Below, piece by piece: positions 531 to 41,714 of a stretch of DNA of 41,714 bases (position 1 is the first letter of the stretch; each line of letters starts with the position of its first letter). This DNA is from a virus. Position numbers and translations under genes: made by a program. A model generated the notes under the pieces. That model was not told where the DNA came from. It worked only from the letters and a program-made list of their open reading frames with translations, and did no database searches. The stretch covers positions 1-41,714 of IMG/VR virus record IMGVR_UViG_3300045051_000324, one strand, 5' to 3'.

Positions 531-1556
531 GTGGCCTCATACACACTCCCCGGAGGCATGCTCTCGACGATGGACGTCGGGTTCTTCGGATCGACGACGA
601 CGCTGTCGGCGATCATCAACCATGAAGACCTGACCGATGTCCTAACGATTCTCGACAGCTTCCAGACGCCGTTCTTTTCCGGCGCTCCGAAGATGCGAGC
701 CCGGGACCTGGTTCACTCCTGGCCGATCGATTCGCTGGCGGCTCCATCGTCGGCAGGTCGTCCGGATGGTGTGGACTTCAGTTCCGGCGACGTCATCACG
801 CCTCCCAAGCGGCTGTTCAATGGTGTCCAGACGTTCGCTGGTGAAATCGTGGTCTCGGACCGGGAACGGGAAGCCAACCCCGCCGGTATTCGGGACATGT
901 ACGAGCACCAGATCACCAAGAAGTTCAAGGAGATCGCACGAAACTTCGAGTACACCTGTTTCCGACCCACGAATGCAGCGACGGCGTCGGCGACGGGTAT
1001 CGAATCCTCGGCGGCTTCCGGCGCTCCGTTGATGGCGGGATTCCAGGGTGCCTTCGGCGGTGCGACGATCTACTGCACGGGCGCTTCTGCGGCGACGGGG
1101 TTCCTGACCGGCGACCTTGTTGACCTGTGCCGTGATCTGTACATCCGCGGAGCAGAGCCGGATTCGCTGTGGCTGGCTCCGCACACGAAGCAGCAGTTCA
1201 TCAACGCGACCTACGGCACGGGCACGGTTGGAGGCCTGATCCGGAACATCGCGGCCGATGACAAGCGGCTCGTCGCGAACGTCGAAGTGTTCGAGACGCC
1301 GTGGAACCAGCTGATTGCCGTGATCGTGGACCGGTTCATTCCGATGGCTACTGCTTCGGCCACGGGCTGTGCCTACTTCGTCGGTGATCGGTCGATGGCT
1401 CGCGTGGCGTTCTTCCGTCCTCCGCAGCACAAGCAGCTTGGGAAGACGGGCGACAACACGAAGGGCATCGTGCTCATGGACGCCACGTTGCATCTGGACC
1501 ACGTCTCCGCATGGGGCATGGTCACGGGTGTGACAGGTGTCTCGGGCATCGTGTAG
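531..1556 (+). CDS. Major capsid protein (SU10/DUF5309-like)
   Basis: A 341-residue protein with the pattern of SU10/DUF5309-type HK97-fold capsid proteins: an N-terminal segment with 'FQTPFFS' near residue 45, a Trp-Pro-Ile-Asp strand near residue 63, a region around residues 90-105 reading 'NGVQTFAGEIVVSD', then a long helix 'EHQITKKFKEIARNFEY'. It would form the capsid shell. The GTG start is chosen because GGAAGGAG lies seven bases upstream. Two Ala/Ser/Thr tracts ('ATASATG', near residues 142 and 277) look like inserted surface loops and recur in the other virion proteins. The gene follows the scaffold gene and is followed by a hairpin terminator. Confidence 0.9.
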   Translation: MASYTLPGGMLSTMDVGFFGSTTTLSAIINHEDLTDVLTILDSFQTPFFSGAPKMRARDLVHSWPIDSLAAPSSAGRPDGVDFSSGDVITPPKRLFNGVQTFAGEIVVSDREREANPAGIRDMYEHQITKKFKEIARNFEYTCFRPTNAATASATGIESSAASGAPLMAGFQGAFGGATIYCTGASAATGFLTGDLVDLCRDLYIRGAEPDSLWLAPHTKQQFINATYGTGTVGGLIRNIAADDKRLVANVEVFETPWNQLIAVIVDRFIPMATASATGCAYFVGDRSMARVAFFRPPQHKQLGKTGDNTKGIVLMDATLHLDHVSAWGMVTGVTGVSGIV

Positions 1557-2238: not shown

Positions 2239-2511
2239 ATGGCGCGTTCAATGCCGGTACAACGGAAGGCCGTGAACCTCGGACCGCAGACGACGGGCAT
2301 GGCTCAGGGCTTCAATGAAGCCGCCGCTGGGGGTGGTGGGATTCAGTCGGGGGCTCACACGGATATCTCCAGCATGACGGGGATCAAGATGCCGTCTGTC
2401 GGGTCGATGGCCAAGCAGGTGGTTCACGGCCTCGGTCAGGGCGTGCACTTCATCATGAGCTACAACCCGTACAAGAACTCGATTGTGCACAAGAACGAAC
2501 CGCCCCGGTGA
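2239..2511 (+). CDS. Small head-region protein, unknown
   Basis: About 90 residues with a Gly/Ala-rich centre and a basic N terminus. The ATG at 2239 is preferred over an in-frame TTG at 2233 because a purine-rich AAAGGCGG precedes it. No motif or membrane segment is clear. It overlaps the glycosyltransferase start by four bases (GTGA), so the two are translationally coupled. Possibly a minor virion component. Confidence 0.65.
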   Translation: MARSMPVQRKAVNLGPQTTGMAQGFNEAAAGGGGIQSGAHTDISSMTGIKMPSVGSMAKQVVHGLGQGVHFIMSYNPYKNSIVHKNEPPR

Positions 2512-3857
2512 AAACACCGCTCACGGTCTACGCCTTCATCCCGAGAAGGCACCATATCGCTTACGAGTACCGCGTCCTGACGCCGCTGGAGGCCGCGAAG
2601 GACTTGGGCCTTCCGATACGGAGCGTGATCGACACCGACGATTCGTCGATCAGTCCGCAGGAGCATTTCAACGCGATCTGCTCATCCGATGTTGCCTACC
2701 TCTATCAGCCGATTTCCGAGATCACGCTGAGCCAGGTGAGGCAGCTGAGATCGATCATTCCGAGCAAGGTGAACGGGGACTGGAAGCATCCTCCTGCGAT
2801 CGTCGTGGACTCAGACGACAACCTGTTCAACGTCACGCCGTTCAACATGGCGTTCCGGAGCCTTGGTTACCAGGACGAAGACGGTAAAGAAATCCCGCGT
2901 GGGAGCATGATCGGCACCTGGCATGGTGGAGACCGGAAGGTGCTCTGGCATGACGGTCCATGCATCGCCGAGAAGTGCGGCAACTGCGGCAAGGGCATCG
3001 ATCTCGGCCAGAACAAGCGCAACCTCCAGTCGTACCGAACGATCGTGGACGAAGCCGATGCATTCACGTGCACGACCCCGCACGTCCTAGAAGCGATGCG
3101 GAGAGAGATCGAGCCGCCCCGTCCGAGGGTGTTCCCGAACACGGTCCGGTTCGATCACTACCCGCAACTTGATCTGGTCGAAGAAGAAGGCAAGGTCAAG
3201 GTGTTCTGGCAGGGTGGAGGGGCGCACTGGGAGGACTTCTATCCTCTCAAGGATGCGATGGCCGAGATCACGGTCAAATACCCACAGGTCCACTGGATCA
3301 TCTGGGGAGCCCTGTACCACTGGGTTATGGAACTGATTCCACCCGACCGATACACGTTCGTGAACTGGGTGAAGCCTGAGGAATACCGGCTTCGCCGGGT
3401 GATGTTCGGCGAGGACATCAACCTCGCTCCACTTCAGGACAACCGGTTTAACCGGTGCCGGAGTGCGATCAAGTTCTACGAGGGCTCGGTGTGCAAGAAG
3501 CCCGCAGCGACCCTGGCTCAAGCGACGGGGCCGTACCAGGACGAGATGATCGAGGGCGAGACCGGGCTCTTGTTTAGTAACCCAAAGGAGTTCGTCGATA
3601 AGTTGAGCCTACTGGTCGAAGATAAACTAATGCGCCAGACGCTGGCGAAGAACGCGAAGGACTGGGTGCATGAGAACCGGAACGCGATGCGCGAGGCTCC
3701 GAAGCTAATCCAGTTCTTCGAGGAGCTGCGAGAGCAGAGCAAGCTCGAGCGGCCGCACATGCCCGACGAGCAGTGGCTGGAGTTCGAGAACCAGCTGACC
3801 CAGCAGGAAGAGGCTCAAGCCAATGGCACTGTTCAACCAGAGCTTAGTAGCCGTTAG
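2508..3857 (+). CDS. GT-B glycosyltransferase (GT4-like)
   Basis: A 449-residue protein with the two-domain outline of GT-B, group 1 glycosyltransferases. The N-terminal domain holds 'IVVDSDDNLF' near residue 105. A Cys cluster 'CIAEKCGNCGKG' follows around residues 150-161. The C-terminal Rossmann half begins near 'VKVFWQGGGAHWED' (about 228) and ends with the acceptor/donor-site pattern 'IKFYEGSVCKKPAATL ... GETGLLF' typical of GT4 enzymes, with the conserved Glu. It would transfer a sugar from a nucleotide donor in the cytoplasm. It lies between capsid and tail genes, far from the main sugar cluster, which suggests a virion protein or a host surface glycan as its target. Confidence 0.8.
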   Translation: MKTPLTVYAFIPRRHHIAYEYRVLTPLEAAKDLGLPIRSVIDTDDSSISPQEHFNAICSSDVAYLYQPISEITLSQVRQLRSIIPSKVNGDWKHPPAIVVDSDDNLFNVTPFNMAFRSLGYQDEDGKEIPRGSMIGTWHGGDRKVLWHDGPCIAEKCGNCGKGIDLGQNKRNLQSYRTIVDEADAFTCTTPHVLEAMRREIEPPRPRVFPNTVRFDHYPQLDLVEEEGKVKVFWQGGGAHWEDFYPLKDAMAEITVKYPQVHWIIWGALYHWVMELIPPDRYTFVNWVKPEEYRLRRVMFGEDINLAPLQDNRFNRCRSAIKFYEGSVCKKPAATLAQATGPYQDEMIEGETGLLFSNPKEFVDKLSLLVEDKLMRQTLAKNAKDWVHENRNAMREAPKLIQFFEELREQSKLERPHMPDEQWLEFENQLTQQEEAQANGTVQPELSSR

Positions 3858-4749
3858 CGCGGCCGTCGGCGAGATCGCTGACTCGGCGGGAGCGTCAGCC
3901 GACAGCGAGCAGCTGAACCGCTCCTGGAAGTCTCTGAAGGCGGCCTACGAGCATTTCAACAACCGGGCGAACTGGGACTTCCTGCGCGTGGAAGCAGCGC
4001 CTTCGGGCGTGATTGCGCCTTACACGTTAGGGGGCGTGTCGGCCTCAGCCAACCAGACTAGTGCCATCGTACCTGGTGGTCACGGTATTCGCGTTGACGA
4101 CTATGTGTCCGGCACGCCCTTTGTCGTTGGAACCCGAGCATCAGCGACGGCCGCGAGCTCGATAGGCCTCACCGTCGGAGTCACTCAGAACATCGGTACC
4201 GGAGTCCAGGGCTTCACGATCACCGTTCTGCGTGATCTCTACGACCTGCCGTCTGACTTCAAGGCCGAGTACTCGGTGAGGCTACTGGGCTCTCAGCGGG
4301 TTCTGAGAAGCACGCGGCAGAGGCAGCTAGGCCGCGCTCGGGCCTCCGAGCAAGACACCGCGAGTCCGGTGATCTACGACGACTTTCTGGTAGGAGCCAA
4401 GGGCAAGATGAGACTTGCCAGAATCCCCGCGGCGACGGACACGATGCTGTTCCGGTACTACCGCCGCATGTCTGTGCCTTCGGCCTCAGGAGCCACGGAA
4501 GCCCTGGACATCCCACAGGACTATGAACTTTACCTGATCGCCTGGGCCAAGTGGCATTACCTGACGGACAAGGCGAATGCCAAGGCAGATCAAGCTCAGG
4601 TCTGGATTGCGCTCGCGAACGAGGGCATCAAGACGATGCTCGCGGATCAGACTCGCAGGCCTGACGAGGACCTCATGATCATTCCTGGGGCATCCTACGG
4701 CGACTCCACGCTGAACACGATGGACGCGATCACCTGGGACTACGTGTGA
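3823..4749 (+). CDS. Head-tail adaptor (P22 gp4-like)
   Basis: A 308-residue protein whose N-terminal helix region 'NRSWKSLKAAYEHFNNRANWDFLR' (residues 28-51) has the look of P22 gp4-type tail accessory/adaptor proteins that bind under the portal ring. A C-terminal helical domain includes 'DYELYLIAWAKWHYLTDKANAKA'. Both are interrupted by Ala/Ser/Thr tracts such as 'RASATAAS' and 'GVSASAN'. It overlaps the glycosyltransferase gene by 35 bases in another frame and is one base from the hub gene. Assignment rests on pattern and gene order. Confidence 0.68.
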   Translation: MALFNQSLVAVSAAVGEIADSAGASADSEQLNRSWKSLKAAYEHFNNRANWDFLRVEAAPSGVIAPYTLGGVSASANQTSAIVPGGHGIRVDDYVSGTPFVVGTRASATAASSIGLTVGVTQNIGTGVQGFTITVLRDLYDLPSDFKAEYSVRLLGSQRVLRSTRQRQLGRARASEQDTASPVIYDDFLVGAKGKMRLARIPAATDTMLFRYYRRMSVPSASGATEALDIPQDYELYLIAWAKWHYLTDKANAKADQAQVWIALANEGIKTMLADQTRRPDEDLMIIPGASYGDSTLNTMDAITWDYV

Positions 4750-30303: not shown

Positions 30304-30513
30304 GTGCCCGTCAACCAAAAGCCACAGGCGATCCACGATCAAGATCAGGCGATCTGGGTCTTGCGCGAGGCTGCTGGTGAGGCGTTTGATTTCATCGAGT
30401 GCTACTGCAACTGCACGGCTAGGGGTCAGGTGGCGAAGCGGCTGCGCTACGCGCTCACGATGACCGAAGCGTTTGCTCCCGCCGTGGACAGACGACGAAA
30501 GGCCGAACGATGA
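30304..30513 (+). CDS. Small helical protein, unknown
   Basis: A 69-residue protein, GTG start one base after the previous stop. 'DQAIWVLREAAGEAFDFIEC' and 'RGQVAKRLRYALTMTEAF' are helical. Two Cys ('CYCNC'). Overlaps the methyltransferase by four bases. Function unknown. Confidence 0.6.
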   Translation: MPVNQKPQAIHDQDQAIWVLREAAGEAFDFIECYCNCTARGQVAKRLRYALTMTEAFAPAVDRRRKAER

Positions 30514-31103
30514 CGCCGTCCAATCCATCCAGCAATCCAGCGGTCTTCTACTCTCACGCCGCCGAGGACGAATGGATCCTCAGCCAGTTCCCCGAGGGCT
30601 TTCAGGGCTATGCCGTCGAACTCGGTGCTCACGACGGCCGGTACATCAGCAATACGTTTCTGCTCGAAGAGAAGGGCTGGACCGTGCTGTGCATCGAGCC
30701 CAATCCTCATCACGAGGCCGAGCTTCGCAAGAACCGCAAACTCGTTTTGACCTGTGCTTGCAACGAGACGCCCAGCGAAGACGCCACGCTGTACATTCAC
30801 TCTGTCCACAACGACACGCAGACGAGTTTGGTGAATACCAGTTCGGACCAGGCGAAGGTGGTCGTGAGAACGCTAGCCGATTGCATCGACAAGGCCGGCT
30901 TTCCAAGGCTGGATGTGATCTCGCTCGACGTGGACGGTCTCGAACTAGAGATCCTCAAGGGAGCCGATCTGCCACGGTGGCATCCCAAGGTGATCGTTGT
31001 TGAAAACAACCAAGGCGAGGCGCTGACTCAGTTCGTGGCGAACTCCGGCTACACGTACATCGAGATGCGTGGGCACAACCAGTTGTGGCTTGCTAATCCG
31101 TGA
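30510..31103 (+). CDS. FkbM-family methyltransferase
   Basis: A 197-residue protein with SAM-binding motif 'VELGAHDGRYISNTFLLEE' near residue 36, motif 'WTVLCIEPNP' near 57, and the FkbM-type 'VISLDVDGLELEILKGAD' near 140. These enzymes methylate oxygen atoms, typically on sugars or polyketides. It heads the glycan cluster. A paralogue lies directly downstream and shares 'QFPEGFQGYA' and 'GWTVLCIEPNP'. Confidence 0.85.
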   Translation: MTPSNPSSNPAVFYSHAAEDEWILSQFPEGFQGYAVELGAHDGRYISNTFLLEEKGWTVLCIEPNPHHEAELRKNRKLVLTCACNETPSEDATLYIHSVHNDTQTSLVNTSSDQAKVVVRTLADCIDKAGFPRLDVISLDVDGLELEILKGADLPRWHPKVIVVENNQGEALTQFVANSGYTYIEMRGHNQLWLANP

Positions 31104-31900
31104 GCAAGATCATCGTTGCCTTGGTCGGCGGTCCGATGGATCACCAGATGTACGCCATCGGCGAGACCGAGGATCCGCGGCTTCAACTCAAGACCCACGA
31201 CCTCGATGAGAAGACCTACGTGATGGCCGTCTACAACCGAGGCGGTGTCGGAAGCGACGGCATCCAGGAGTACGTTTATTCTGGCGATATCGAGGTCAAG
31301 CACGGAAGCCTCTCCGGCATCGGATGCGAGGACCTGTGGCTGCTCGGTCAGTTTCCTGAAGGCTTTCAAGGTTACGCCGCTGACGTTGGAGCCTACGACG
31401 GAGTCTCGACCAGCAACACGCTTCTGCTGGAACGTGAAGGCTGGACGGTCCTGTGTATCGAGCCCAACCCGTGGCTGGAATCGGCGCTCAAGCACCGGAA
31501 GCTTGCCGAAATCTGCGCCTGCGGGTCTGTTGAGCAGGAGTCCGCGGATTTCCACGTTCACTGTGTCGCTCCTGGCGCGTTCTCGGCCCTGAATCCGATC
31601 AAGGACAATCCGACCTGGCACCCGAGAACCGATGCCGCCTGGGATGTCATCAAGGTTCCCATCAGACGCTTGGAAACGCTCCTGAGAGCCCACCAGTTCC
31701 CGAGGCTGGACGTCTTGAGCGTGGACGTTGAGGGAGCCGAGATCGACGTTCTGGAGGGCTTGGATCTCCAGGAATGGGGCGTCCAGGCGATCGTCGGAGA
31801 AGACTGGGACGATCCGGGCACCCTCACGCCGTATCTGGCAGGACGAGGGTATCGGTTAGTCGAGCGCCGCGAACCGAACAATCTCTACCTGCGTGTCTAA
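31100..31900 (+). CDS. FkbM-family methyltransferase fused to a small phage domain
   Basis: A 266-residue protein, GTG start. Residues 1-70 ('VALVGGPMDHQMYAIGE', ending 'QEYVYSG') look like a small stand-alone phage protein. Residues 75-266 repeat the FkbM domain of the preceding gene: 'ADVGAYDGVSTSNTLLLE' SAM motif, 'CIEPNPW', 'LSVDVEGAEIDVLEG'. The pair arose by tandem duplication. Probably O-methylates a sugar made or added by the glycosyltransferases downstream. Confidence 0.85.
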   Translation: MSKIIVALVGGPMDHQMYAIGETEDPRLQLKTHDLDEKTYVMAVYNRGGVGSDGIQEYVYSGDIEVKHGSLSGIGCEDLWLLGQFPEGFQGYAADVGAYDGVSTSNTLLLEREGWTVLCIEPNPWLESALKHRKLAEICACGSVEQESADFHVHCVAPGAFSALNPIKDNPTWHPRTDAAWDVIKVPIRRLETLLRAHQFPRLDVLSVDVEGAEIDVLEGLDLQEWGVQAIVGEDWDDPGTLTPYLAGRGYRLVERREPNNLYLRV

Positions 31901-32570
31901 CGGCCGCGTGCTGGTTCTATGCGCCTCGAGGGACCGGAATCTCGCTCTTCAGCGGATGATCGATTCAGTTCTGGCAACCTCAACCAAGGCCGACGTGCGT
32001 ATCTACGTCGATGAGGATCAGGCCGAGGACTACAGGTACGTAGAGGTTCCCTGGGTAATCGGACCTCGAATCGGACCCGTGGCGTCCCTGAATCGTCTAT
32101 GGGAGCTAAATCCTGGATACGAGGCTTACGGAGCCGCCACGGATGATTGCGAGTTCGTGACGCCCGGCTGGGACGACTGGATTCTTGAGACCACAAAGTC
32201 CTTTCCGAACGAGATCGGCCTGATGGCTCCCTGGAGGGATGGAACGCCGCACAATGAAGGTGCCATCGAGGCGTTCGGGACCTACATCCGTCGGATGGAT
32301 TTCCCCTGGGCAACCCGGAAGTGGACCGAAACCGTGGGCTGGTTTGCCTATCCGGGAGCCGAGCACTTCTTCTGGGACGTGCTCTCAGAGGTCATCGGCT
32401 GGCAGACGGGCATCCAATACGCGACTTCCGAGCAGTTCGTTCTCACCCACGACAACCTTCCAACCCCGGATGCTTACCGGAAGGTCCTGCGTGATGGAGT
32501 CCGTTGCATGCAAGGGATCGCCTTCGATGTCCCCGTCATCATCAAGCGAATTCAGAAGGCGCAGGCGTGA
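31893..32570 (+). CDS. Glycosyltransferase-like protein, paralogue 1
   Basis: A 225-residue protein, GTG start, eight-base overlap. GT-A-like pattern: N-terminal 'VLVLCASRDRNLALQRMIDS', acidic donor-site motif 'VDEDQAED' near residue 40, 'TPGWDDWILE' near 90, 'FPNEIGLMAP' and 'GWFAYPGAEHFFWDV'. The same four blocks occur in the genes at 32567 and 33588. Likely nucleotide-sugar transferase; acceptor unknown. Confidence 0.78.
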   Translation: MSNGRVLVLCASRDRNLALQRMIDSVLATSTKADVRIYVDEDQAEDYRYVEVPWVIGPRIGPVASLNRLWELNPGYEAYGAATDDCEFVTPGWDDWILETTKSFPNEIGLMAPWRDGTPHNEGAIEAFGTYIRRMDFPWATRKWTETVGWFAYPGAEHFFWDVLSEVIGWQTGIQYATSEQFVLTHDNLPTPDAYRKVLRDGVRCMQGIAFDVPVIIKRIQKAQA

Positions 32571-33226
32571 TCGCGGTTCTGTGTCCGACCCGCGATCGTC
32601 CTGAGAAGCTTAGGCGACTGGTCCAGTCGATCCTCGACACCTCGGTCAAGGTTCACGTGCTGGCGTGGATCGATGACGATCAGTACAACCTCTACAGCAG
32701 CCTTCCGTGGGCGAAGAAGTTCAGCGATCCCTACGATCCGACTGTCAGGATCCATTTTCACTACGGCCACCGCTGCTCGGTGGTCGAGGCCATGAACAAC
32801 CTCGCCCAGCTGCATCGCGAATTCCGGATCTACGGCATGATGCCGGATGACGCGATGATGAAGACCCCCGGCTGGGACCGCTGGATGCTCGCCAAGTTCG
32901 ATGCGTTCCCGAACGATGTCGGGGTCGTTAGTCCGCACCACAACTACGGCGATTACATCGACATGCCATTTCTCAGCAGGGCCTGGATCGACGCGATCGG
33001 CTACTTCGCTTATCCGCATATGTTCCATTACGCCTGGACGCTCGCCACGGGATTGCTCGGGGAAGCAACGAACATCGTCTACGCCACGAAGGACGAGATG
33101 ACAATCCTGCATGATCACGTGGACTCGCCGAACATGGCGCACTACGAAGGCGACTGTGCGAAGTTCTTCAACCATTTCATGTTCAATCACAGACGGCTGA
33201 TTGACAACCTGCGGGCGGCGATGTGA
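32567..33226 (+). CDS. Glycosyltransferase-like protein, paralogue 2
   Basis: About 219 residues from GTG 32567 (GTGA overlap; the longer frame is rejected). Shows 'VLCPTRDRPEKLRRLVQS', acidic 'WIDDDQYN', 'TPGWDRWMLAK', 'FPNDVGVVSP', 'GYFAYPHMFHYAWT' and ends 'DNLRAAM', like paralogue 3. GT-A fold is inferred from these blocks. Confidence 0.78.
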   Translation: MIAVLCPTRDRPEKLRRLVQSILDTSVKVHVLAWIDDDQYNLYSSLPWAKKFSDPYDPTVRIHFHYGHRCSVVEAMNNLAQLHREFRIYGMMPDDAMMKTPGWDRWMLAKFDAFPNDVGVVSPHHNYGDYIDMPFLSRAWIDAIGYFAYPHMFHYAWTLATGLLGEATNIVYATKDEMTILHDHVDSPNMAHYEGDCAKFFNHFMFNHRRLIDNLRAAM

Positions 33227-33597
33227 CCGAAGAAGAGCGCGACGTGCTCATGAAGGCGATCTCGCTGGTCCGATGGAAACGCGCCGAGATGCTAGGGCGC
33301 GACCCCTACGGGACCAGCTGTGAGAAAACCTTGGTCGCGGCCGTGGACCACATGATGGCTAAAGCGGACAGCCAGTACGGTGGTTGGGACTGGTGCGTGG
33401 ACGAAGTCGTCCAGGCGTTTCCGCTCGGTGCCGTGCTGCCCGAAGGAACTCGGCGTTACGCTGTTCGGGGTCCCGGTTCATGGGACCAGTTATTTTTCAA
33501 GCGAATCGCTCGATGTGCGTCAGAGGCAGACGCAAAGGTCGTCGCGGCTTGTCTCGACGGTCTAGAAGTCGATTCAGAGGGTAATCCGTGGCCATAG
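33223..33597 (+). CDS. Small protein within glycosyltransferase cluster
   Basis: A 124-residue protein, GTG start, GTGA overlap upstream and ten-base overlap downstream. N-terminal helices ('VLMKAISLVRWKRAEMLG'), 'GGWDWCVDEVV' in the centre and 'EADAKVVAACLDGLEVDSEG' at the end. No methyltransferase or transferase motif. Function unknown. Confidence 0.65.
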   Translation: MTEEERDVLMKAISLVRWKRAEMLGRDPYGTSCEKTLVAAVDHMMAKADSQYGGWDWCVDEVVQAFPLGAVLPEGTRRYAVRGPGSWDQLFFKRIARCASEADAKVVAACLDGLEVDSEGNPWP

Positions 33598-34226
33598 GAG
33601 TGGTCTGTCCGACCAAGCGTCCCGGAGAGTTCGTGAAGATGGCGAACTCCGCGACCTCGCTGAGCCTGGACGCTCACGTGCTTGCCTATACCGATGACGG
33701 GGACGACTACACCGAGGCCTTCGTCAGCCTGGAGCAGCCGGACCGCGTGAAGATGCTTCGGGGTCCCCGCTGTGGACCCACGGCTTCGGTGAACAAACTC
33801 GTCAACCACTTTCCGGATTACGACGTCTACGGCGTATGCCCGGATGACTGTGCGTTCTCGACGCCGGGCTGGGGGAAGTTCGTTGAGGACGCGATCCATT
33901 CGTTTCCGAATCAGATCGGCGTCTTGAGCCCGGCGCACAACTTCGGACCGTTCGTGAACTTCCCGTTCGTCTCGAAGCGGTGGATCGACGTGCTAGGATG
34001 GTTCGCATGTCCGACGATGTACCACTTCTGCTGGGATTCGGTCTTGGAATTACTTGGCGAGCAGACGGTTATCCGGTTCGCCACCAGAGACGAGATGTTC
34101 ATGACGAACCAGGCCATTCCTGCGTTCAACTACGACACCCACTTCCGAGCGGACTGCGAGCAGTTCCTGTGGTGGACCGTCCTGACCAGGAAGTCTCAGG
34201 TCGAAAAGCTCAAGGCGGCGATGTGA
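33588..34226 (+). CDS. Glycosyltransferase-like protein, paralogue 3
   Basis: A 212-residue protein, GTG start. 'GVVCPTKRPGEFVKMANS', acidic 'YTDDGDD', 'TPGWGKFVED', 'FPNQIGVLSP', 'GWFACPTMYHFCWD', end 'EKLKAAM'. The most diverged of the three in the N-terminal donor region, which would fit a different sugar donor. It ends with GTGA coupling to a zinc-ribbon gene. Confidence 0.78.
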   Translation: MAIGVVCPTKRPGEFVKMANSATSLSLDAHVLAYTDDGDDYTEAFVSLEQPDRVKMLRGPRCGPTASVNKLVNHFPDYDVYGVCPDDCAFSTPGWGKFVEDAIHSFPNQIGVLSPAHNFGPFVNFPFVSKRWIDVLGWFACPTMYHFCWDSVLELLGEQTVIRFATRDEMFMTNQAIPAFNYDTHFRADCEQFLWWTVLTRKSQVEKLKAAM

Positions 34227-34438
34227 GCACGTTCCGCGGCAACCTGGAGTCCTGGGGCAACTACGGCGGCCAACTACGCTGTACGATGACCAACGACGAG
34301 TGCCCGAACTGCAAAGGCCGCATTTGGCGCGAGGAGCGGGTGGTCTCGGAAGCTAACCAGAGCAAGCACATCTTCGCCCTGATCTGCCACGCCTGCCAGA
34401 AGGTGTACGTCGAGAAAAAAGAACTGGTCGAGCCGTGA
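34223..34438 (+). CDS. Small zinc-ribbon protein
   Basis: A 71-residue protein from GTG 34223 (GTGA); the longer upstream frame overlaps the glycosyltransferase and is rejected. 'CPNCKGRIW' and 'CHACQKVYVEKK' give two CxxC pairs about 30 residues apart, a zinc ribbon. Possibly DNA- or RNA-binding; located just before the terminase genes. Confidence 0.65.
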   Translation: MSTFRGNLESWGNYGGQLRCTMTNDECPNCKGRIWREERVVSEANQSKHIFALICHACQKVYVEKKELVEP

Positions 34439-34968
34439 GCGAGCAACCGGACAAGATGACCCCGGCCGAAGTCGAGGCCAAGATCGAGTCCATCGCCCGA
34501 GGTCTCTCCGAAGCCGACGCCGCGCAGGTTAGGGTCCTGTTGCACCTCTACAGCCGCCAGGACGCCGCCGTCACGCTTCCGAAGCCCATGAGTCAGAAAG
34601 AGATGATCGAGCGCATGCTGCCGCTCCTGAGAGCCCTGGGACGGCCTGGGGCGCAGCTGGCCTACCGGAAGGCCTGGCCGAACTCCACGACCCGGATCAC
34701 GGACGTTCCGAAGATTGAAGTGAACGACCTCGACATCACGGGAGTGAAGTTCCCGATCAGCCTCAAGCAGTTGTACAAGATGGCCCCCGAGACCAAGCGG
34801 CCGGGCTATCCTCGAGGCTATCCAGCCCGAGGAGCCTTGGACGAGAAGAAAGCCTGGGTAGAGTCAGAGTTTCTGAAGGTGCTGAGAGCGAGAAAGCAGA
34901 GGGAACTGCAACGTGAGCAGGCATCGGACGCCGAGTCTCCAGCGGCACCAGAGGCGGGTGCTTCGTGA
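34435..34968 (+). CDS. Possible small terminase subunit
   Basis: A 177-residue protein directly upstream of, and overlapping by 56 bases, the large terminase gene. Helical N-terminal half ('AKIESIARGLSEADAAQVRV'), a middle part with 'AYRKAWPNSTTRITDVPK' and a charged C-terminal helix ('FLKVLRARKQRELQREQ'). Position and helical, charged character fit a DNA-recognition terminase subunit; no helix-turn-helix is certain. Confidence 0.45.
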   Translation: MSEQPDKMTPAEVEAKIESIARGLSEADAAQVRVLLHLYSRQDAAVTLPKPMSQKEMIERMLPLLRALGRPGAQLAYRKAWPNSTTRITDVPKIEVNDLDITGVKFPISLKQLYKMAPETKRPGYPRGYPARGALDEKKAWVESEFLKVLRARKQRELQREQASDAESPAAPEAGAS

Positions 34969-36694
34969 GTGGTCGTGTGAGGACGAGCTTGTCCTCCTGA
35001 GAAACGCCTGTCTGCTGGATTTCTGGGCGTTTTTCCTGTACGCGGCTGGCTGCGGGGTCAATCCCAAGGGCAAGAACTGGGTCGATTACCAGGTCCATGA
35101 GCCGATGGCTCGCTGGTTCCAGGAGCATATCGACGAGTGGATGGGCTGGCGTGCCGAGCGAGCCTTGGACCCCGACCTTCCTGCCCGGCCGAAGCATCTG
35201 GCGATACTCGTCCACCGCGGGGTCGGCAAGACCTGGATGTTCACCCACGCCGGCTTGCTCTGGCTCCAGCTTCGGGACCCGGAGATGAGCATCTACATCG
35301 GCTCCGAAAAGACGGAACTTGCCCAGCAGAGCCTCAAGTCCATTCAGGCAATCATCGACGGATCGGACCCCTACGCCTTCTTCGCCCGCCTGTACGGAAA
35401 CTGGTCAACGGCAAGCCGGAAGTGGACCGGCAAGGAAATCGTCCACGTTGCCAGAAAGAATGTCGCCCGAAGAGATCCAAGTGTCGGGACGTTTGCGGTC
35501 GAGACGAGCATTGTCGGGGCTCATCCTGACGCGATCTTCTACGACGATCCGATCTCCTACGATCGTTTGAGCACGGACACGAACTGGCTGAACACGGTCT
35601 GGGGCCAGACGACGAGCCTGATCCCGGTTATCCAGGCGGATGGCCTGATGGTATGGATCGGGACCCGGTACGACGACCGCGACCATTTCGGCCGCGCGTT
35701 TGAACTCCCGAAAGACGGAGGTCACGGGGTAGCAAGCCTGACGGGCATGCCTACGGACTCGATCGAGGTCACCGAGAACGGCCTCTGGCACGTGTACTTC
35801 ATGGCCGGGCGAGACAAAGAAGGCCATCCGACGACTCCGAAATCCTGGCCGGAGAAGAAGCTGCTTTACTTCGACTCCACCGAACATGATCGTTATGCCG
35901 CGCAGATCATGAACGATCCGACGCTCTCGGACGCGAACAAGATCACACGCGAGCAGATCAAGAGCCGGATCATTCCGGTCTCGAGAGTGCCCTGGAACGG
36001 TCTTCGGTACGCGATCCTGTGCGATACGGCGTTCTGGGACGGCCGCAGGCTTCTCGACAAGGACGAGACTGTCTACCAGGTCTGGGGCTACACGCGGGAT
36101 GGCTCGGGCGAGGTGTACTACGTCGAAGGCGGCGGCTCGAATTCGTGGAGGTCCGAGGACTTTGCGGACATTCTGGTGAAACTAGTGCAGCGGTATCGGA
36201 GTCAGTACCGCCAGATCATCGCGATCACTGACGAAGTGACGATGGCGGGGAAGAAGGGGGCCTGGCGGATGAGTCTCCAGAACTACTTCCACGACGCCGG
36301 CATGCGGATGCCGCGGTTCATCGAGTTCGACCGCCGCGGAGCGCGGAAGATGGACCGGATCGCCAAGAGCACCAGTTTTTGGCTTGATGGAACGGTGTGG
36401 CTGGTGGAGGGTGCTCCCGGACTCAAGCAGCTGACGGATCAGGTCGCGACGATTGGCCAGCTGATGCTGAAGCCTAATCGTAAGAACGACTGGGTAGACG
36501 CTGCTGCTGACGTATTCGAGCCCGAACTCTATAACCCGATGCGGAAGCGGGAGACGGGCAAGGACGACCATGGCAAACTGGCGCCGTGGGACCGCAACAG
36601 CAGGCTTCTGGAGGTTGAGGGCTTGGACCTGGATCAGTGGGAAGACGACGACCGTGCTTGGGCAGCGGGTGCCCCGAGGCCGCCGATCCGTTAA
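34913..36694 (+). CDS. Terminase large subunit
   Basis: A 593-residue protein, GTG start with AGAGGGA upstream. ATPase: Walker A 'HRGVGKT' (101-107) and Walker B 'AIFYDDP' (207-213). Nuclease: 'AILCDTAFWD' with Asp371, 'AITDEV' with Asp440/Glu441 and, near the C terminus, 'KNDWVDAAAD', the three acidic clusters of the RNase H-like headful or cohesive cutters. It packages DNA into the prohead through the portal. The class of ends cannot be told from sequence alone. Confidence 0.93.
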   Translation: MSRHRTPSLQRHQRRVLREWSCEDELVLLRNACLLDFWAFFLYAAGCGVNPKGKNWVDYQVHEPMARWFQEHIDEWMGWRAERALDPDLPARPKHLAILVHRGVGKTWMFTHAGLLWLQLRDPEMSIYIGSEKTELAQQSLKSIQAIIDGSDPYAFFARLYGNWSTASRKWTGKEIVHVARKNVARRDPSVGTFAVETSIVGAHPDAIFYDDPISYDRLSTDTNWLNTVWGQTTSLIPVIQADGLMVWIGTRYDDRDHFGRAFELPKDGGHGVASLTGMPTDSIEVTENGLWHVYFMAGRDKEGHPTTPKSWPEKKLLYFDSTEHDRYAAQIMNDPTLSDANKITREQIKSRIIPVSRVPWNGLRYAILCDTAFWDGRRLLDKDETVYQVWGYTRDGSGEVYYVEGGGSNSWRSEDFADILVKLVQRYRSQYRQIIAITDEVTMAGKKGAWRMSLQNYFHDAGMRMPRFIEFDRRGARKMDRIAKSTSFWLDGTVWLVEGAPGLKQLTDQVATIGQLMLKPNRKNDWVDAAADVFEPELYNPMRKRETGKDDHGKLAPWDRNSRLLEVEGLDLDQWEDDDRAWAAGAPRPPIR

Positions 36695-36708
36695 GAAAGG
36701 GGCCACGG

Positions 36709-37917
36709 ATGGCCAAGCAACATCCTGAAATCGCGGCCTACAAGGCCACCAAGCAGGTATACGAGACCCGGACCACCTGCCGGGTCTGTCAGAAGCCAAG
36801 CCTGAGCCTGGTCCTGAGCCTGGGAGACCAGTACGTCGCGAACTTCGTCAAAGACGTGGACATGTCGCTCCCTCGGGTTCCGTTGAACCTGGTTCAGTGC
36901 ACCGAATGCGGGCTACTCCAGCTTCGCGAGACGACGGACCCGGACATTCTATGGCGCGGGCATTACTGGTACCGCTCCGGCATCAACGCCACCATGCGCG
37001 AAGCCCTTCTTGACATCGTCCAGGCAGGCCTCAGGTTCGTCAACGCCGGGACGTGGCTGGACATCGGAGCGAACGATGGCACGTTGCTAAGCCGGGTGCC
37101 TCAGGAGTTCAAGAAGATCGGCTGCGAGCCATCGACCAGCATGCAGGTATTTCTCGAGGAGCACGCCGACAAGGTGGTCGGTGACTTCTTCTCGGCCCAG
37201 TCCGTGGGTGAGACGGCAAACGTAATCACGTCCTGTGCGATGTTCTACGACCTGGACGACCCGAATAAATTCGTCGCCGACATCGCCGCGACCCTTGCCG
37301 ACGACGGTGTCTGGATCAACCAACTCTCGAACACGCCCGTGATGCTCCAGACGACGGCGTTCGACAATATCTGCCACGAGCACGTCTGCTACTACGACAT
37401 CCAGAGCCTTCAGCGGCTCTACGAACAGCACGGGCTCGTGATCATCTCGACCAGCCTGAACGACGTGAACGGCGGCAGCATCCGAACCGTCGCCGCGAAG
37501 CGCGGGATGCCCAACGTGCTCGGAGTGCCGAAGATCATGCCGGGTTCGGTAAAGGCCTTCTGCGACCGGGTCAGGCGCTGGAAGCTTCAGGCCCAGGAAA
37601 TCATCGACAACCTACCGAGCATGACGAGCCTGTGGGCCTACGGAGCCTCCACCAAGGGCTGTACGCTGCTCCAGTACCTGGACCGGAGCGACAAGTTCGT
37701 CGCGATTGCTGACAGGAATCCCGCCAAGTGGGGTCTTAGGATGGCGGGGTCGTGGATACCGATCGTTGACGAAGAGACCATGCGGCAAGCGCGGCCGAGC
37801 CATCTCGCAGTGTTGCCGTGGGCGTTTGCTGAAGAGTTCACCGCCAGGGAGACGGCGACCCGGAACGCAGGGACGACGATGATGTTCCCGTTGCCTGACT
37901 GGAGGTTCGTGCTGTGA
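36709..37917 (+). CDS. Sugar C-methyltransferase (TylCIII-like)
   Basis: A 402-residue protein, start chosen at ATG 36709 after AAGAAAGGGG. N-terminal zinc site 'CRVCQ' (24-27) and 'CTECG' (64-67), SAM motif 'DIGANDGTLL' (118-127) and 'DNICHEHVCYYD' near residue 225, the hallmark of NDP-hexose C-methyltransferases that branch deoxysugars, followed by their C-terminal domain. Works on a nucleotide sugar, so the phage makes or modifies a branched sugar. Such enzymes are rarely reported next to a terminase. Confidence 0.87.
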   Translation: MAKQHPEIAAYKATKQVYETRTTCRVCQKPSLSLVLSLGDQYVANFVKDVDMSLPRVPLNLVQCTECGLLQLRETTDPDILWRGHYWYRSGINATMREALLDIVQAGLRFVNAGTWLDIGANDGTLLSRVPQEFKKIGCEPSTSMQVFLEEHADKVVGDFFSAQSVGETANVITSCAMFYDLDDPNKFVADIAATLADDGVWINQLSNTPVMLQTTAFDNICHEHVCYYDIQSLQRLYEQHGLVIISTSLNDVNGGSIRTVAAKRGMPNVLGVPKIMPGSVKAFCDRVRRWKLQAQEIIDNLPSMTSLWAYGASTKGCTLLQYLDRSDKFVAIADRNPAKWGLRMAGSWIPIVDEETMRQARPSHLAVLPWAFAEEFTARETATRNAGTTMMFPLPDWRFVL

Positions 37918-38738
37918 ACCCAGTAGCCTACTTTCCCGGCAAGCTCGGCGACTCCGTCCTCCAGTGGCCAGCCGCGCGAGCGTGGTCCCGGAAGATCGGT
38001 AAGCCGATCGATGTCTGGCTCGACGAGAAGTCCAGCAAGCACCTGAAGCCTCTACTCGAGGTCCAGCCGGAAGTCGGCGAAGTGAAGCTGACGAACCAGT
38101 CGGTGGACTACACCTGCGGAGGCCAGCCGTGGGACGGAAACTTCCCGACCGAGGTCCACGCTGAACGCGAGATCGTCAGCTTCGGCCTCCGGGCGTTTCC
38201 TAGCCGACAGATCACGCTCCAGACCCTGCACGATGTCCCGATGGACCTGGGGACCAAGATCCCCGACGAGCCGCAGTTCGAGGTCGGCTCCGTGATCCAG
38301 GAGAACCGGGTGGTCCTGCACGGCACCTTCACCAGCCACCACTCCGGAGTGCCGGGCTTCTGGAAGTTCCTGAACCGGGTCCAGGCTGACCTGGACGACC
38401 GGTTCGAACAGGTCATGTTTGTCGGCACCGAACCGGAGCGAAGACGGGCTCTGGAGCTTTACCCTCGCTGGAGCGGCTACGCTGACGACGGGGACTTCCT
38501 GGTGCTGGCAAGGCTCCTGGCCGGGTCTCGGCTTGTTATGGGCTCTGGGTCGAGCGTCGTGGCTCTGGGGGGTGCTCTGAGAGTCCCCACGGTCCGGGTA
38601 CATGACCCGATCGGAGAGCACCCGAAGGTCCTCTGGAGCAACCTCGGTCAGAATCAGATCAATGAGACTGAGGCAGGGCTACGGAAAATTTGGCCAATTT
38701 TCCGGGACAACTGGGTACCGAAGCTGGTGTCTGTGTGA
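37914..38738 (+). CDS. GT9-like glycosyltransferase
   Basis: A 274-residue protein, GTG start (GTGA overlap). 'PVAYFPGKLGDSVLQWPAA' at the N terminus resembles the first strand-loop of heptosyltransferases, and 'FLVLARLLAGSRLVMGSGSS' with 'ALGGALRVPTVRV' is their donor-binding half (the 'D-S-G' and 'G-T-P-T' region with changed residues). It would transfer a heptose-like or deoxy sugar. Shorter than bacterial GT9 enzymes (about 320-350). Confidence 0.72.
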   Translation: MNPVAYFPGKLGDSVLQWPAARAWSRKIGKPIDVWLDEKSSKHLKPLLEVQPEVGEVKLTNQSVDYTCGGQPWDGNFPTEVHAEREIVSFGLRAFPSRQITLQTLHDVPMDLGTKIPDEPQFEVGSVIQENRVVLHGTFTSHHSGVPGFWKFLNRVQADLDDRFEQVMFVGTEPERRRALELYPRWSGYADDGDFLVLARLLAGSRLVMGSGSSVVALGGALRVPTVRVHDPIGEHPKVLWSNLGQNQINETEAGLRKIWPIFRDNWVPKLVSV

Positions 38739-38977
38739 GCGACACGCTTGGAAGCCTCGTAGACAAGCTTGCCGTGACCAACATCAAGCTATTCATGGTC
38801 CAGGACGAGATCCACGCCGCGGCGAAGCAAGGAATCGGACTGGACGCTGACACGACGAAAAAGCTCGTGGATCTGAACCTTCAGCGGAACAAACTGATGT
38901 CTGAGATCGATGAAGTATTCGCCAAAGGCCTCGCGACGGGGCTGGCAGAAGTCGATCCACGTGTCAAGATCATCTAG
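38735..38977 (+). CDS. DUF4254-like protein
   Basis: An 80-residue protein from GTG 38735. 'LVDKLAVTNIKLFMVQDEIH' and 'LVDLNLQRNKLMSEIDEVF' resemble the helical DUF4254 family, which is found beside GT9 enzymes in bacterial surface-sugar clusters. Role unknown. Its place next to the GT9-like gene suggests the pair moved in together. Confidence 0.6.
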   Translation: MSDTLGSLVDKLAVTNIKLFMVQDEIHAAAKQGIGLDADTTKKLVDLNLQRNKLMSEIDEVFAKGLATGLAEVDPRVKII

Positions 38978-39016: not shown

Positions 39017-40906
39017 ATGAGCTATCAGACGTCAGGGACGACGTCACCTCGAGACCCTGTGTCCGAAGAGCGAGTCATCGAACTCGTCGATGCTCGCTGG
39101 CAGCACTCGCTTCGCTACAACCGGACCCTGTTCTCGAAGGTCAAGACCTGGACGGACCAGTTCAGGGGCACCCAGGCCGGCAGACTCTCCCAGTTCCGCA
39201 ACAACGTGAGCATCCCGTTCACGTTCGCGATGATCGAGAGCTTCGTCGCCCGCCTCGCCGAGACGACCTTTGGTGCCTGGCCGATCGTCGGATTCGAGGG
39301 CTACGCCCCCGAGGACCAGTCGCTGGCCAAGAAACGCGAGGTCCTGATCTCGGCCCAGATGAAGGACTGCGACTCTGTCCGCAAGGCCAACGACTTCTAC
39401 ATGCAGGCCGCGATCTGCGGGACCGGCATAGCCAGGTATGGCTGGAAGAACGTCACCCGGAAGACTCGGTACCGGAAGATGGAGACCATCGCTCCCGGGA
39501 TGCGGATTCCGGTGATCTACGAGGCTGACCTGACCAAGTTCAACGGTCCCGATTGGGTGCCTGTGGACCGGCTGGATTTCGGCCAGCAGCCGGGCATCAA
39601 GTGGATCGATGACATGGACTGGGTCTGTCACCGCTACTACCGGGACTGGGACGCGCTCATGGAAGAGTCCATGAACGAGTACAGCTACTTCGATCCGAGA
39701 GCGGTTAAGCAGCTTGAAAACTTCCCGATGACGGGAGCGAGCGCGGACGAGTTCACCTCTCGTCGGCTGATGTTCCGAAACGACTACGATTACATGGTCC
39801 GGGCCAACGAACGGTTCGCGAAGCCGATCGAGATCATCGAGATGCACGGTCTCGTTCCGAGCGAGTTCGCCATTGACGGTGTCCGAGAGCGGTGCATCGC
39901 CGTCGCCAACGGCCGCGTGGTGATCAAGAACACCGAAGCCCAGCTTCCGTCAGGCGAGAAGCCGTTTCTCTCCTACTGCCCTCAGCCTGACCCTTACGGC
40001 TTCGATGGCATCAGCAAGGCTGAAATCGCCGAGAAGATGCAGCGGACAGCCGACCGGATCGCGAACCAGAAGCTCGATGCTCTGGACCTCTTGATCGATC
40101 CGATGTACGTGGCCTCGAACAGCACGAACCTGAACACGCAGAATCTGTTCAGCCGTGCTGGCAGAATCCTGCTCGTGGACGGTGCGGCGAACGAGGACAA
40201 CATCCGGCCGCTGAATCCGGACATGCAGGGCCTTCAGGCGGCCTACACGGAGATCGCGCAGCTGTTCAGCTTCATGCAGTTGGGAACGGGAGAGACGGAT
40301 GTCCTGCTCGGTGTCAGGCCTCAAGGGGACGAAACGGCAAGGGGAGTCCTGGCCAGACAAGAAAACGCGCTCTCCCGCTCCACCCATGAAGCCAAGCTTG
40401 CTGACGAAACGTTTGTCGAGAAGCTAGCCAACGCCTTCGTCGAACTCGACCGCTACCTACTGCCGATCCCCTATCAGGTGAAGATCCTGGGGTCGATGGC
40501 GACGACGAACCCGATCACGGGACTGCCGTACCCAGACCAGCCGGTGACGATGGAAGACGGCGATCTGGTGCCAGACTACCGGGCTCGGGCAGTTGGTTCG
40601 ACGCAGATGCAGGGCAAGGGCATGGCGCGGCAGGACTGGCTCTCGATCCTTCAGGTGATCGGCACGAACCCGTTCCTCCAGCAGATCCTCAAGTGGCCGG
40701 AAATCGCTCGCGAGACGCTGACGAGGTTCGGAGTCAGGAACGTGAACGACTTCATCGTGAACCAGATTCCGCTGGTCAATCAGATGGCCGCGATGCAGCA
40801 AGGCGGCGGAGCCAACGGCCCCACGGTTCAGCAGCCATTGGATCAGCTTTCCAGTGGCACGCTGGGACCGCAGGCTCCGAGTCCGATTGCGATGATCTCT
40901 AAATGA
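39017..40906 (+). CDS. Portal protein
   Basis: A 629-residue protein. N-terminal 'FRNNVSIPFTFAMIESFVAR', wing region with 'GTGIARYGWKNVTRKTRYRK' and 'GLVPSEFAIDGVR', stem/crown helices around 'YTEIAQLFSFMQLGTGETD' and 'QGDETARGVLARQENALSRS' are the arrangement of P22- or T7-type portals. It forms the dodecameric ring at one vertex. The ATG has no clear ribosome-binding site, a point to verify. Confidence 0.87.
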   Translation: MSYQTSGTTSPRDPVSEERVIELVDARWQHSLRYNRTLFSKVKTWTDQFRGTQAGRLSQFRNNVSIPFTFAMIESFVARLAETTFGAWPIVGFEGYAPEDQSLAKKREVLISAQMKDCDSVRKANDFYMQAAICGTGIARYGWKNVTRKTRYRKMETIAPGMRIPVIYEADLTKFNGPDWVPVDRLDFGQQPGIKWIDDMDWVCHRYYRDWDALMEESMNEYSYFDPRAVKQLENFPMTGASADEFTSRRLMFRNDYDYMVRANERFAKPIEIIEMHGLVPSEFAIDGVRERCIAVANGRVVIKNTEAQLPSGEKPFLSYCPQPDPYGFDGISKAEIAEKMQRTADRIANQKLDALDLLIDPMYVASNSTNLNTQNLFSRAGRILLVDGAANEDNIRPLNPDMQGLQAAYTEIAQLFSFMQLGTGETDVLLGVRPQGDETARGVLARQENALSRSTHEAKLADETFVEKLANAFVELDRYLLPIPYQVKILGSMATTNPITGLPYPDQPVTMEDGDLVPDYRARAVGSTQMQGKGMARQDWLSILQVIGTNPFLQQILKWPEIARETLTRFGVRNVNDFIVNQIPLVNQMAAMQQGGGANGPTVQQPLDQLSSGTLGPQAPSPIAMISK

Positions 40907-41235: not shown

Positions 41236-41714
41236 ATGGAAGACACGAACGTCAGCCCGGCGCAACCGCAGCCCAACGCTGACCAGCGTCTCGCGGAACT
41301 CGAACAGCGGTATGCCGCCTCCAGCGCAGAAGGCAAGCGGCTGGCTCAGGAAGTCCAAAAGTGGCAGGCCTACGCCCAGCAGGTGGAGCAGCAGGTGCAG
41401 CAGTCTCAACAGGGACAGCGAACCGCCTCTGACAAGCTGGCCGAGTTTGGTTTCCCGGTCCCGGACCTCGAGGAGTTCGTCTCTTCGCGGGTCGCGCAAG
41501 CCGTGGACGACCGGCTTCGGCCGCTCTCCCAACTCGGAACGGCCAGAGCAGAACTGATGGCCAAGTATGGCGAGGACTACCAGAAGTTCGAGCCCGAGGT
41601 GTTCAAGTTCGTGAACTCCGATCCGGCATTGAATCAACGGTTCAATCAGATGCTCAAAGCGGACGCCGGTGCGGCGAACGAATGGGCATACCTCACTTAC
41701 GCAGACCAGCAGCG
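41236..41714 (+). CDS. Scaffold-like protein, N-terminal part (runs off contig end)
   Basis: ATG 41236 after AGAGGA. Coiled-coil region rich in Gln and Glu ('EVQKWQAYAQQVEQQVQQSQ', residues 40-59) and a charged remainder that continues as bases 3-500. Joined, the protein is about 234 residues. A small acidic coiled-coil protein between portal and capsid genes is typical of scaffolding proteins. Confidence 0.75.
   Translation, partial: MEDTNVSPAQPQPNADQRLAELEQRYAASSAEGKRLAQEVQKWQAYAQQVEQQVQQSQQGQRTASDKLAEFGFPVPDLEEFVSSRVAQAVDDRLRPLSQLGTARAELMAKYGEDYQKFEPEVFKFVNSDPALNQRFNQMLKADAGAANEWAYLTYADQQ
41441..41714. repeat. Contig-end direct repeat, right copy
   Basis: Right copy of the repeat at 1-274, with silent differences at 41568, 41622, 41628, 41637, 41670 and 41712. 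Confidence 0.93.

Follow-up and report, generated by a model that had tools for sequence, protein, structure and literature searches.

A fixed frame of glycan genes around a variable island in the head module of an uncultivated phage lineage, a candidate system for virion glycosylation

The window analysed here is the whole of IMG/VR virus record IMGVR_UViG_3300045051_000324 (41,714 bases, 60.6% G+C), a phage sequence in which genes for glycan modification are interspersed with those for packaging and head assembly. A preliminary description, made from the sequence before any database search, had listed two FkbM methyltransferases, three GT-A-like proteins, a TylCIII-like sugar C-methyltransferase (CMT), a GT9-like and a DUF4254-like protein and a GT-B enzyme, all on the late strand, and each of these genes is present on the + strand. 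Two FkbM-family O-methyltransferase genes (FkbM 1, 30510..31103; FkbM 2, 31100..31900) open the cassette. They are followed by the glycosyltransferases (GTs) GT-A 1 (31893..32570) and GT-A 2 (32567..33226), a small island protein without Pfam family (33223..33597), GT-A 3 (33588..34226) and a short zinc-ribbon protein (34223..34438) with CxxC pairs and weak zinc-ribbon/DUF matches. Next come the terminase subunits TerS (34435..34968), which has no family match and is named by position, with syntenic homologues in relatives, and TerL (34913..36694; PHROG 38, E = 1.6e-40; 25 related contigs). The CMT (36709..37917), a heptosyltransferase-like GT with the GT9 fold (37914..38738) and a small DUF4254-like protein (38735..38977) are encoded between TerL and the portal protein (39017..40906; PHROG 332, E = 6.8e-22; PHROG 1216, E = 3.5e-16), which forms the right border of the cassette. 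The GT-B gene (2508..3857) lies between those for the SU10-type major capsid protein (531..1556; PF17236, E = 4.5e-43) and the SU10-type adaptor (3823..4749; PF24175, E = 4.5e-11). Starts were revised for GT-A 2 (from 32504, probably), the CMT (from 36637) and the DUF4254-like protein (from 38690).

With these starts, 4-bp overlaps join FkbM 1 to FkbM 2, GT-A 1 to GT-A 2, GT-A 2 to the gene at 33223, the zinc-ribbon gene to TerS, the CMT to the GT9-fold gene and the latter to the DUF4254-like gene. Because of these overlaps, joint translation of the cassette with the terminase and portal genes is probable, and the arrangement suggests a single operon. A scan for promoters and terminators returned no more sites than shuffled sequences. 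The core of the preliminary interpretation, namely that late phage enzymes modify a glycan, is well supported, and the genes are apparently co-transcribed.

The CMT unites PF08421, PF13489 and PF08484 in one protein, all above cut-off. Over its whole length it matches D-mycarose 3-C-methyltransferase (4rv9, E = 2.7e-27) best among PDB entries, and TcaB9 with E = 1e-22. The zinc-site cysteines C27, C30, C67 and C70 as well as the E227-H228 dyad, which we take to correspond to the catalytic E224-H225 of TcaB9, are invariant in 18 sequences. The predicted C-methyl-branched deoxysugar of the preliminary description is likewise well supported. In one relative (L080:5685-7982) an intein of ~345 amino acids (PF14890, E = 1e-7; LAGLIDADG, E = 2e-5), bearing the signatures Cys1, HN and Cys+1, is inserted into the CMT directly before the CHEH motif; a reading of this locus as two genes was rejected in favour of a single open reading frame (ORF) split by the intein. 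Preferred insertion sites of inteins are the conserved active-site motifs in important proteins, and the position next to CHEH therefore fits a catalytic role of this motif. To our knowledge, a CMT is not a usual location for an intein. Separately, TerL of another relative (L026:5780-8728) seems to carry an in-frame intein-like insert that starts with CIEVGRP and ends with VVHN before TRYDD.

A search with the CMT retrieved 50 loci, 49 of which encode proteins at least 47% identical to that of the window. The exception, L131 (32%), is a 51.6-kb contig of another phage lineage, where the CMT gene lies between two GT-like genes, possibly downstream of capsid-module genes. The nucleotide sugar on which the CMT acts can be approached from the surroundings of its homologues. 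The island of relative L037 holds, between two GT-A genes, a gene that scores best in NCBIfam with GDP-L-fucose synthase (E = 1.1e-26; this falls far short of the equivalog cut-off and allows assignment at the family level only). In Synechococcus phage DSL-LC02, a 36%-identical CMT is encoded between GDP-mannose 4,6-dehydratase and GDP-L-fucose synthase, ahead of GTs and an FkbM enzyme, and this context points to GDP-4-keto-6-deoxymannose. A 735-kb uncultured phage (L090, LR756501) has two CMTs and an FkbM gene in one sugar cluster; this cluster is large and unannotated and also contains radical SAM, nucleoside diphosphate (NDP)-sugar epimerase-like and transketolase-like genes. Taken together, these contexts suggest that the CMT substrate may be a GDP-4-keto-6-deoxyhexose. 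The preliminary description, seeing no pathway genes for NDP-sugar synthesis, had concluded that donors of the host are used. This agrees with the window, in which no nucleotide-sugar dehydratase (PF16363) was found, but does not extend to L037 with its own GDP-fucose-synthase-like gene.

Both FkbM proteins exceed the curated cut-offs of their families, with 63.2 and 65.7 bits against PF05050 (Methyltransf_21; cut-off 22.7; E = 4.3e-17 and 7.5e-18) and 58.0 and 56.7 bits against TIGR01444 (cut-off 37.7; E = 1.4e-15 and 3.6e-15). The closest relatives of FkbM 1 (50-53% identical) are located in the islands of other contigs. The three GT-A proteins match PHROG 14945 (E = 1.9e-8, 5e-20 and 3.5e-10 in gene order), and an orthologue of GT-A 1 sits behind the GT9-fold gene in L002 and L003, with identities of up to 56%. 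Pfam Glycos_transf_2 was matched by only 2 of 22 GT-A members (best E = 0.002). As PDB sequence profiles of GT-A and GT9 proteins yielded matches at chance level only, their identification required folds. The AlphaFold model of GT-A 2, the middle paralogue, was computed with 22 natural sequences as input and reached a predicted local distance difference test (pLDDT) score of 95.8. Its best solved Foldseek matches are the GT-A/GT2 enzymes WrtF (E = 8.6e-9), RmlT and SpsA, and models of viral GT2 proteins are matched too. Within the 22 sequences D97 of the acidic motif is invariant, while D96 and D38xD40 are nearly so. We therefore assign these proteins to GT-A by predicted fold, and not as curated GT2 members; for the paralogue that was modelled, the transferase fold anticipated in the preliminary description is confirmed. 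In relative L009 a GT-A and an FkbM domain are joined, in this order, in one protein of 428 amino acids, and the same ORF recurs in L010, where the contig edge ends it. This fusion, the GDP-fucose-synthase-like gene of L037 and the DSL-LC02 operon support a sugar pathway.

GTs of phages can also decorate DNA, and a TET-associated GT is one of the numerous structures that the GT-A model matches at low rank, so that the enzymes might glycosylate hypermodified bases of the phage genome. Family searches covering 18 records speak against this idea: neither a thymidylate synthase/dCMP hydroxymethylase (PF00303) nor a TAGT (PF20691) was detected, and a search for Tet_JBP (PF12851), run without a positive control, was negative too. 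Moreover, the genes belong to the late module, away from replication genes; those for an exonuclease and replication initiation are on the other strand of the window. We know of no sugar C-methyltransferase in DNA-hypermodification pathways, and consider base glycosylation highly improbable.

The GT9-fold protein (274 amino acids) was modelled with a pLDDT of 81.7, and Foldseek aligned the model with the heptosyltransferases WaaF, WaaC and TibC (WaaF, E = 9e-9; template-modelling score ~0.6), with 3tov also near the top. G12 and D13 are invariant in the aligned relatives; in WaaC, Asp13 is the catalytic base. A sequence match to PF01075 (GT9) was obtained for only one of 17 members (E = 0.1), and the protein is hence termed GT9-fold here rather than a GT9 member by sequence. 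The DUF4254-like protein, conserved across nine aligned sequences, matches PF14063 partially and below the curated cut-off (23.0 versus 27 bits; E = 7.8e-5), and this small family is DUF4254-like only. The GT-B protein is assigned by PF13524 (E = 7.4e-6) and PHROG 7162 (E = 6.1e-23).

The ends of the window form an imperfect direct terminal repeat of 274 bp (1-274 versus 41441-41714, six mismatches), so the window is close to a complete genome. The repeat suggests that the genome is complete, either circular or terminally redundant, and that its assembly drew on mixed strains. No relatives at the DNA level exist in a GenBank-derived phage collection, where all terminase matches are below 30% identity, which identifies the lineage as uncultivated and distant; a host search with the terminase profile against 84,980 genomes gave no match. 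Related IMG/VR loci were recruited by terminase search (25) and GT9 search (66), and their gene order was read by profile mapping. Viral scans with a single GT-A or GT9 protein as query returned nothing; terminase and alignment queries did work.

The relatives share one order, TerS-TerL-CMT-[island]-GT9-(DUF4254-like)-portal-scaffold-capsid-...-GT-B-adaptor. In 33 of the 36 distinct contigs that reach from TerL to portal, the CMT and the GT9-fold gene are both located in this interval; contigs were counted without dereplication, and counts do not equal independent events. The other three (L023-L025, with L023 and L024 almost the same) are distant relatives whose terminases show only 41% identity, and they carry a GT2 gene in the slot (E = 9e-9 and 2.8e-16). 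GT-B was found in all 28 capsid-to-adaptor loci, some of which belong to the same contig. Inside this frame the composition changes: in the 42 contigs that have the complete frame, between none and eight GT-A/FkbM genes, in 19 different orders, separate the CMT from GT9. Thirty-four contigs hold one to eight such genes there, and the remaining eight have them upstream of TerS, as in the window (five contigs), or behind GT9 (three). The gene order noticed in the window recurs in dozens of related contigs and, the genes being under purifying selection, lies far beyond chance. In the phage glycan gene literature covered here, subscription papers and preprints excluded, an architecture of fixed frame and variable island is not described, which is weak evidence of its absence; the comparative pattern, a constant set of glycan genes in the head module enclosing an exchangeable island, goes beyond the preliminary description and is new to us.

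Exchange of the island can be followed between close relatives. L014 and L018 share 100% of terminase and 99% of portal amino acids, and their flanks are ~92% identical in DNA; the island segment of L014 nevertheless encodes GT-A, FkbM and FkbM, whereas its counterpart in L018 is a single FkbM gene. Likewise, L071 and L086 have identical portals and 74%-identical GT9-fold proteins, and their islands differ. Such high variability and swapping would be expected if the genes were passenger morons without a common function, acquired repeatedly at a recombination hot spot. The frame genes do not behave in this way, as CMT, GT9 and GT-B are fixed in the lineage and track portal divergence (correlations of 0.77, 0.84 and 0.89, respectively, compared with 0.61 for the best island matches). 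All genes are also under purifying selection, and one relative encodes GT-A and FkbM as a single protein; passenger genes are accordingly a very unlikely explanation. In the two closest pairs compared, the ratio of non-synonymous to synonymous substitution rates (dN/dS) of cassette genes was 0.02-0.15; in the one pair that allowed the comparison, terminase and portal had values of 0.002-0.03 and the capsid protein had 0.085. Cassette genes are constrained, yet evolve faster than terminase and portal.

The region upstream of TerS contains further variable genes. Many relatives encode there a zinc-ribbon-headed family of ~260-310 amino acids (44 clustered ORFs, to which duplicate loci contribute; for example L002:4647-5441, L003:3045-3845 and L012:2499-3431), whereas the window has only its short zinc-ribbon protein (34223-34438) at this place. 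These proteins are possible virion surface or acceptor proteins. Beta-helix, tailspike-like proteins (L012:4921-5868 and L026:3831-5333; PF13229, PF12708) are encoded near the terminase, apart from the tail region.

The target of the enzymes had been left by the preliminary description between a virion protein and the host surface; our data favour the former and disfavour the latter. Modification of a host surface glycan (lipopolysaccharide (LPS), capsule or glycolipid) late in infection, by which superinfection or the binding of progeny to debris would be blocked, is the main rival explanation. The GT9 fold resembles LPS heptosyltransferases, and tail-spike-like beta-helix proteins near the island of some relatives make polysaccharide receptors plausible. 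FkbM, CMT and DUF4254-like genes are, in addition, typical of bacterial envelope-sugar loci. The marks of Gtr-type serotype conversion, however, are missing: the cassette proteins have no transmembrane segment, and the 18 records searched contain neither the GtrA flippase (PF04138) nor an integrase or resolvase, which makes lysogenic conversion unlikely. On the basis of the family searches we reject DNA modification, Gtr conversion and lysogeny (with the caveat on Tet_JBP given above). The positions of the genes are also locked among head genes throughout the lineage. For these reasons, and in view of the precedent of capsid and tail-tube glycans in other phages, we favour a virion protein as target and regard the host surface as unlikely.

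A narrower proposal is that only a tail fibre or another receptor-binding protein carries the glycan, which would tune host range, the island varying with the receptor. Island variation is indeed as expected of a host-range trait, and variable proteins, including beta-helix ones, are encoded directly upstream of TerS in many relatives. The fixed GT-B gene, on the other hand, adjoins capsid and adaptor and not fibres, and the window retains the cassette without the larger proteins that its relatives encode upstream of TerS. We judge a glycan confined to fibres to be rather improbable.

We thus consider it likely, if far from certain, that the genes constitute a virion-glycosylation system of this uncultivated lineage of short-genome phages, which would provide a variable coat of methylated sugars. 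Translation of the cassette would take place late in infection, along with that of the packaging and head genes. An NDP-4-keto-6-deoxyhexose from the host, probably linked to GDP, may be methylated at C-3 by the CMT, and the branched sugar would arise after reduction by a reductase, in the window's phage a host enzyme. A virion protein in the cytoplasm, most probably one of the head, would carry a short glycan, whose invariant portion would come from the CMT, GT9-fold and GT-B enzymes of the frame. The GT-A enzymes, which vary, might attach further sugars, and the FkbM enzymes might cap hydroxyls by O-methylation. The virion glycan would thus probably be C-methyl-branched. As an outcome, each phage type would display a different coat, which could help to evade adhesion blocks, proteases, predators or antibody-like recognition, or could tune attachment. 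A more tentative extension, to which we give somewhat less than even credence, regards the locus as the phage equivalent of the O-antigen loci of bacteria, where a fixed glycan-core frame and a rapidly exchanged GT-A/FkbM island generate C-methyl-branched virion serotypes.

Several points weigh against virion glycosylation as formulated here. The CMT has no equivalent of the active-site His181 of TcaB9; the aligned residue is D184, invariant in the 18 sequences and part of an FYD motif. Since this position is always Asp, the CMT forms a distinct subfamily, and the exchange suggests altered substrate or chemistry. The GT9 assignment lacks a sequence-family match and depends on a model of moderate confidence, while the putative GDP-sugar hinges on 36%-identity homologues in other phages. 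Furthermore, glycan and acceptor are predictions, and as GT9 enzymes of the LPS core are soluble too, proteins without membrane segments leave room for a host-surface target.

What makes the system worth attention is that an entire uncultivated lineage retains a glycan frame among its terminase, portal and capsid genes, beside genes that differ between near-identical phages. A fixed frame with changing neighbours is the expected look of an arms race over virion surface chemistry. The dozens of contigs provide a data set for comparing glycan gene content with host range and resistance, and the lineage points to phage enzymes for rare C-methyl-branched sugars.

Glycosylation of phage particles is documented mainly in actinobacteriophages. 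Like the window, mycobacteriophages of cluster O (Corndog) have GT and methyltransferase genes inside the head/packaging module. Corndog gp35-gp38, an O-methyltransferase and three GTs, are encoded between portal and protease; their products occur in infected cells, are not among the identified virion proteins and have the capsid as their proposed target (PMC4351075). PMC11600133, citing Freeman 2023, describes the cluster O enzymes as modifying capsid and tail tube, and both PMC11600133 and PMC12619734 credit later work with the demonstration of glycans on mycobacteriophage capsids and tail tubes. In contrast to the window, no CMT, GT9-fold or DUF4254-like gene is named for Corndog, which is an unrelated phage, and a layout of frame and island is undescribed there. 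Streptomyces phage KimJongPhill encodes UDP-glucose dehydrogenase, a methyltransferase and a GT-B homologue (gp4-gp6) directly upstream of TerS, TerL and portal, but its sugar pathway is a different one without CMT, GT9-fold protein or GT-A array, and its structural genes are unrelated to those of the window. In Podoviridae sp. ctQWt234 (MW202801, a 40-kb podovirus), two GTs (one a GT-B homologue), PhyH, a methyltransferase and a NodB-like protein are encoded immediately behind the major capsid gene; these enzymes differ from the window's and lack the CMT-GT9 frame. Cyanophage DSL-LC02 combines the same kinds of enzymes, CMT homologue (36%), FkbM and several GTs, in one operon, yet it brings its own GDP-mannose dehydratase and GDP-fucose synthase, and the cluster is situated outside the terminase-portal region of a large genome. 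With the 3-C-methyltransferases TylCIII, MtmC and TcaB9, the window CMT has the three Pfam domains, the zinc cysteines and the Glu-His dyad in common; it is remote in sequence and differs from TcaB9 by the invariant FYD motif in place of His181. On the best reading of these comparisons, the system of the window would resemble virion glycosylation of the Corndog type, built on a new architecture.

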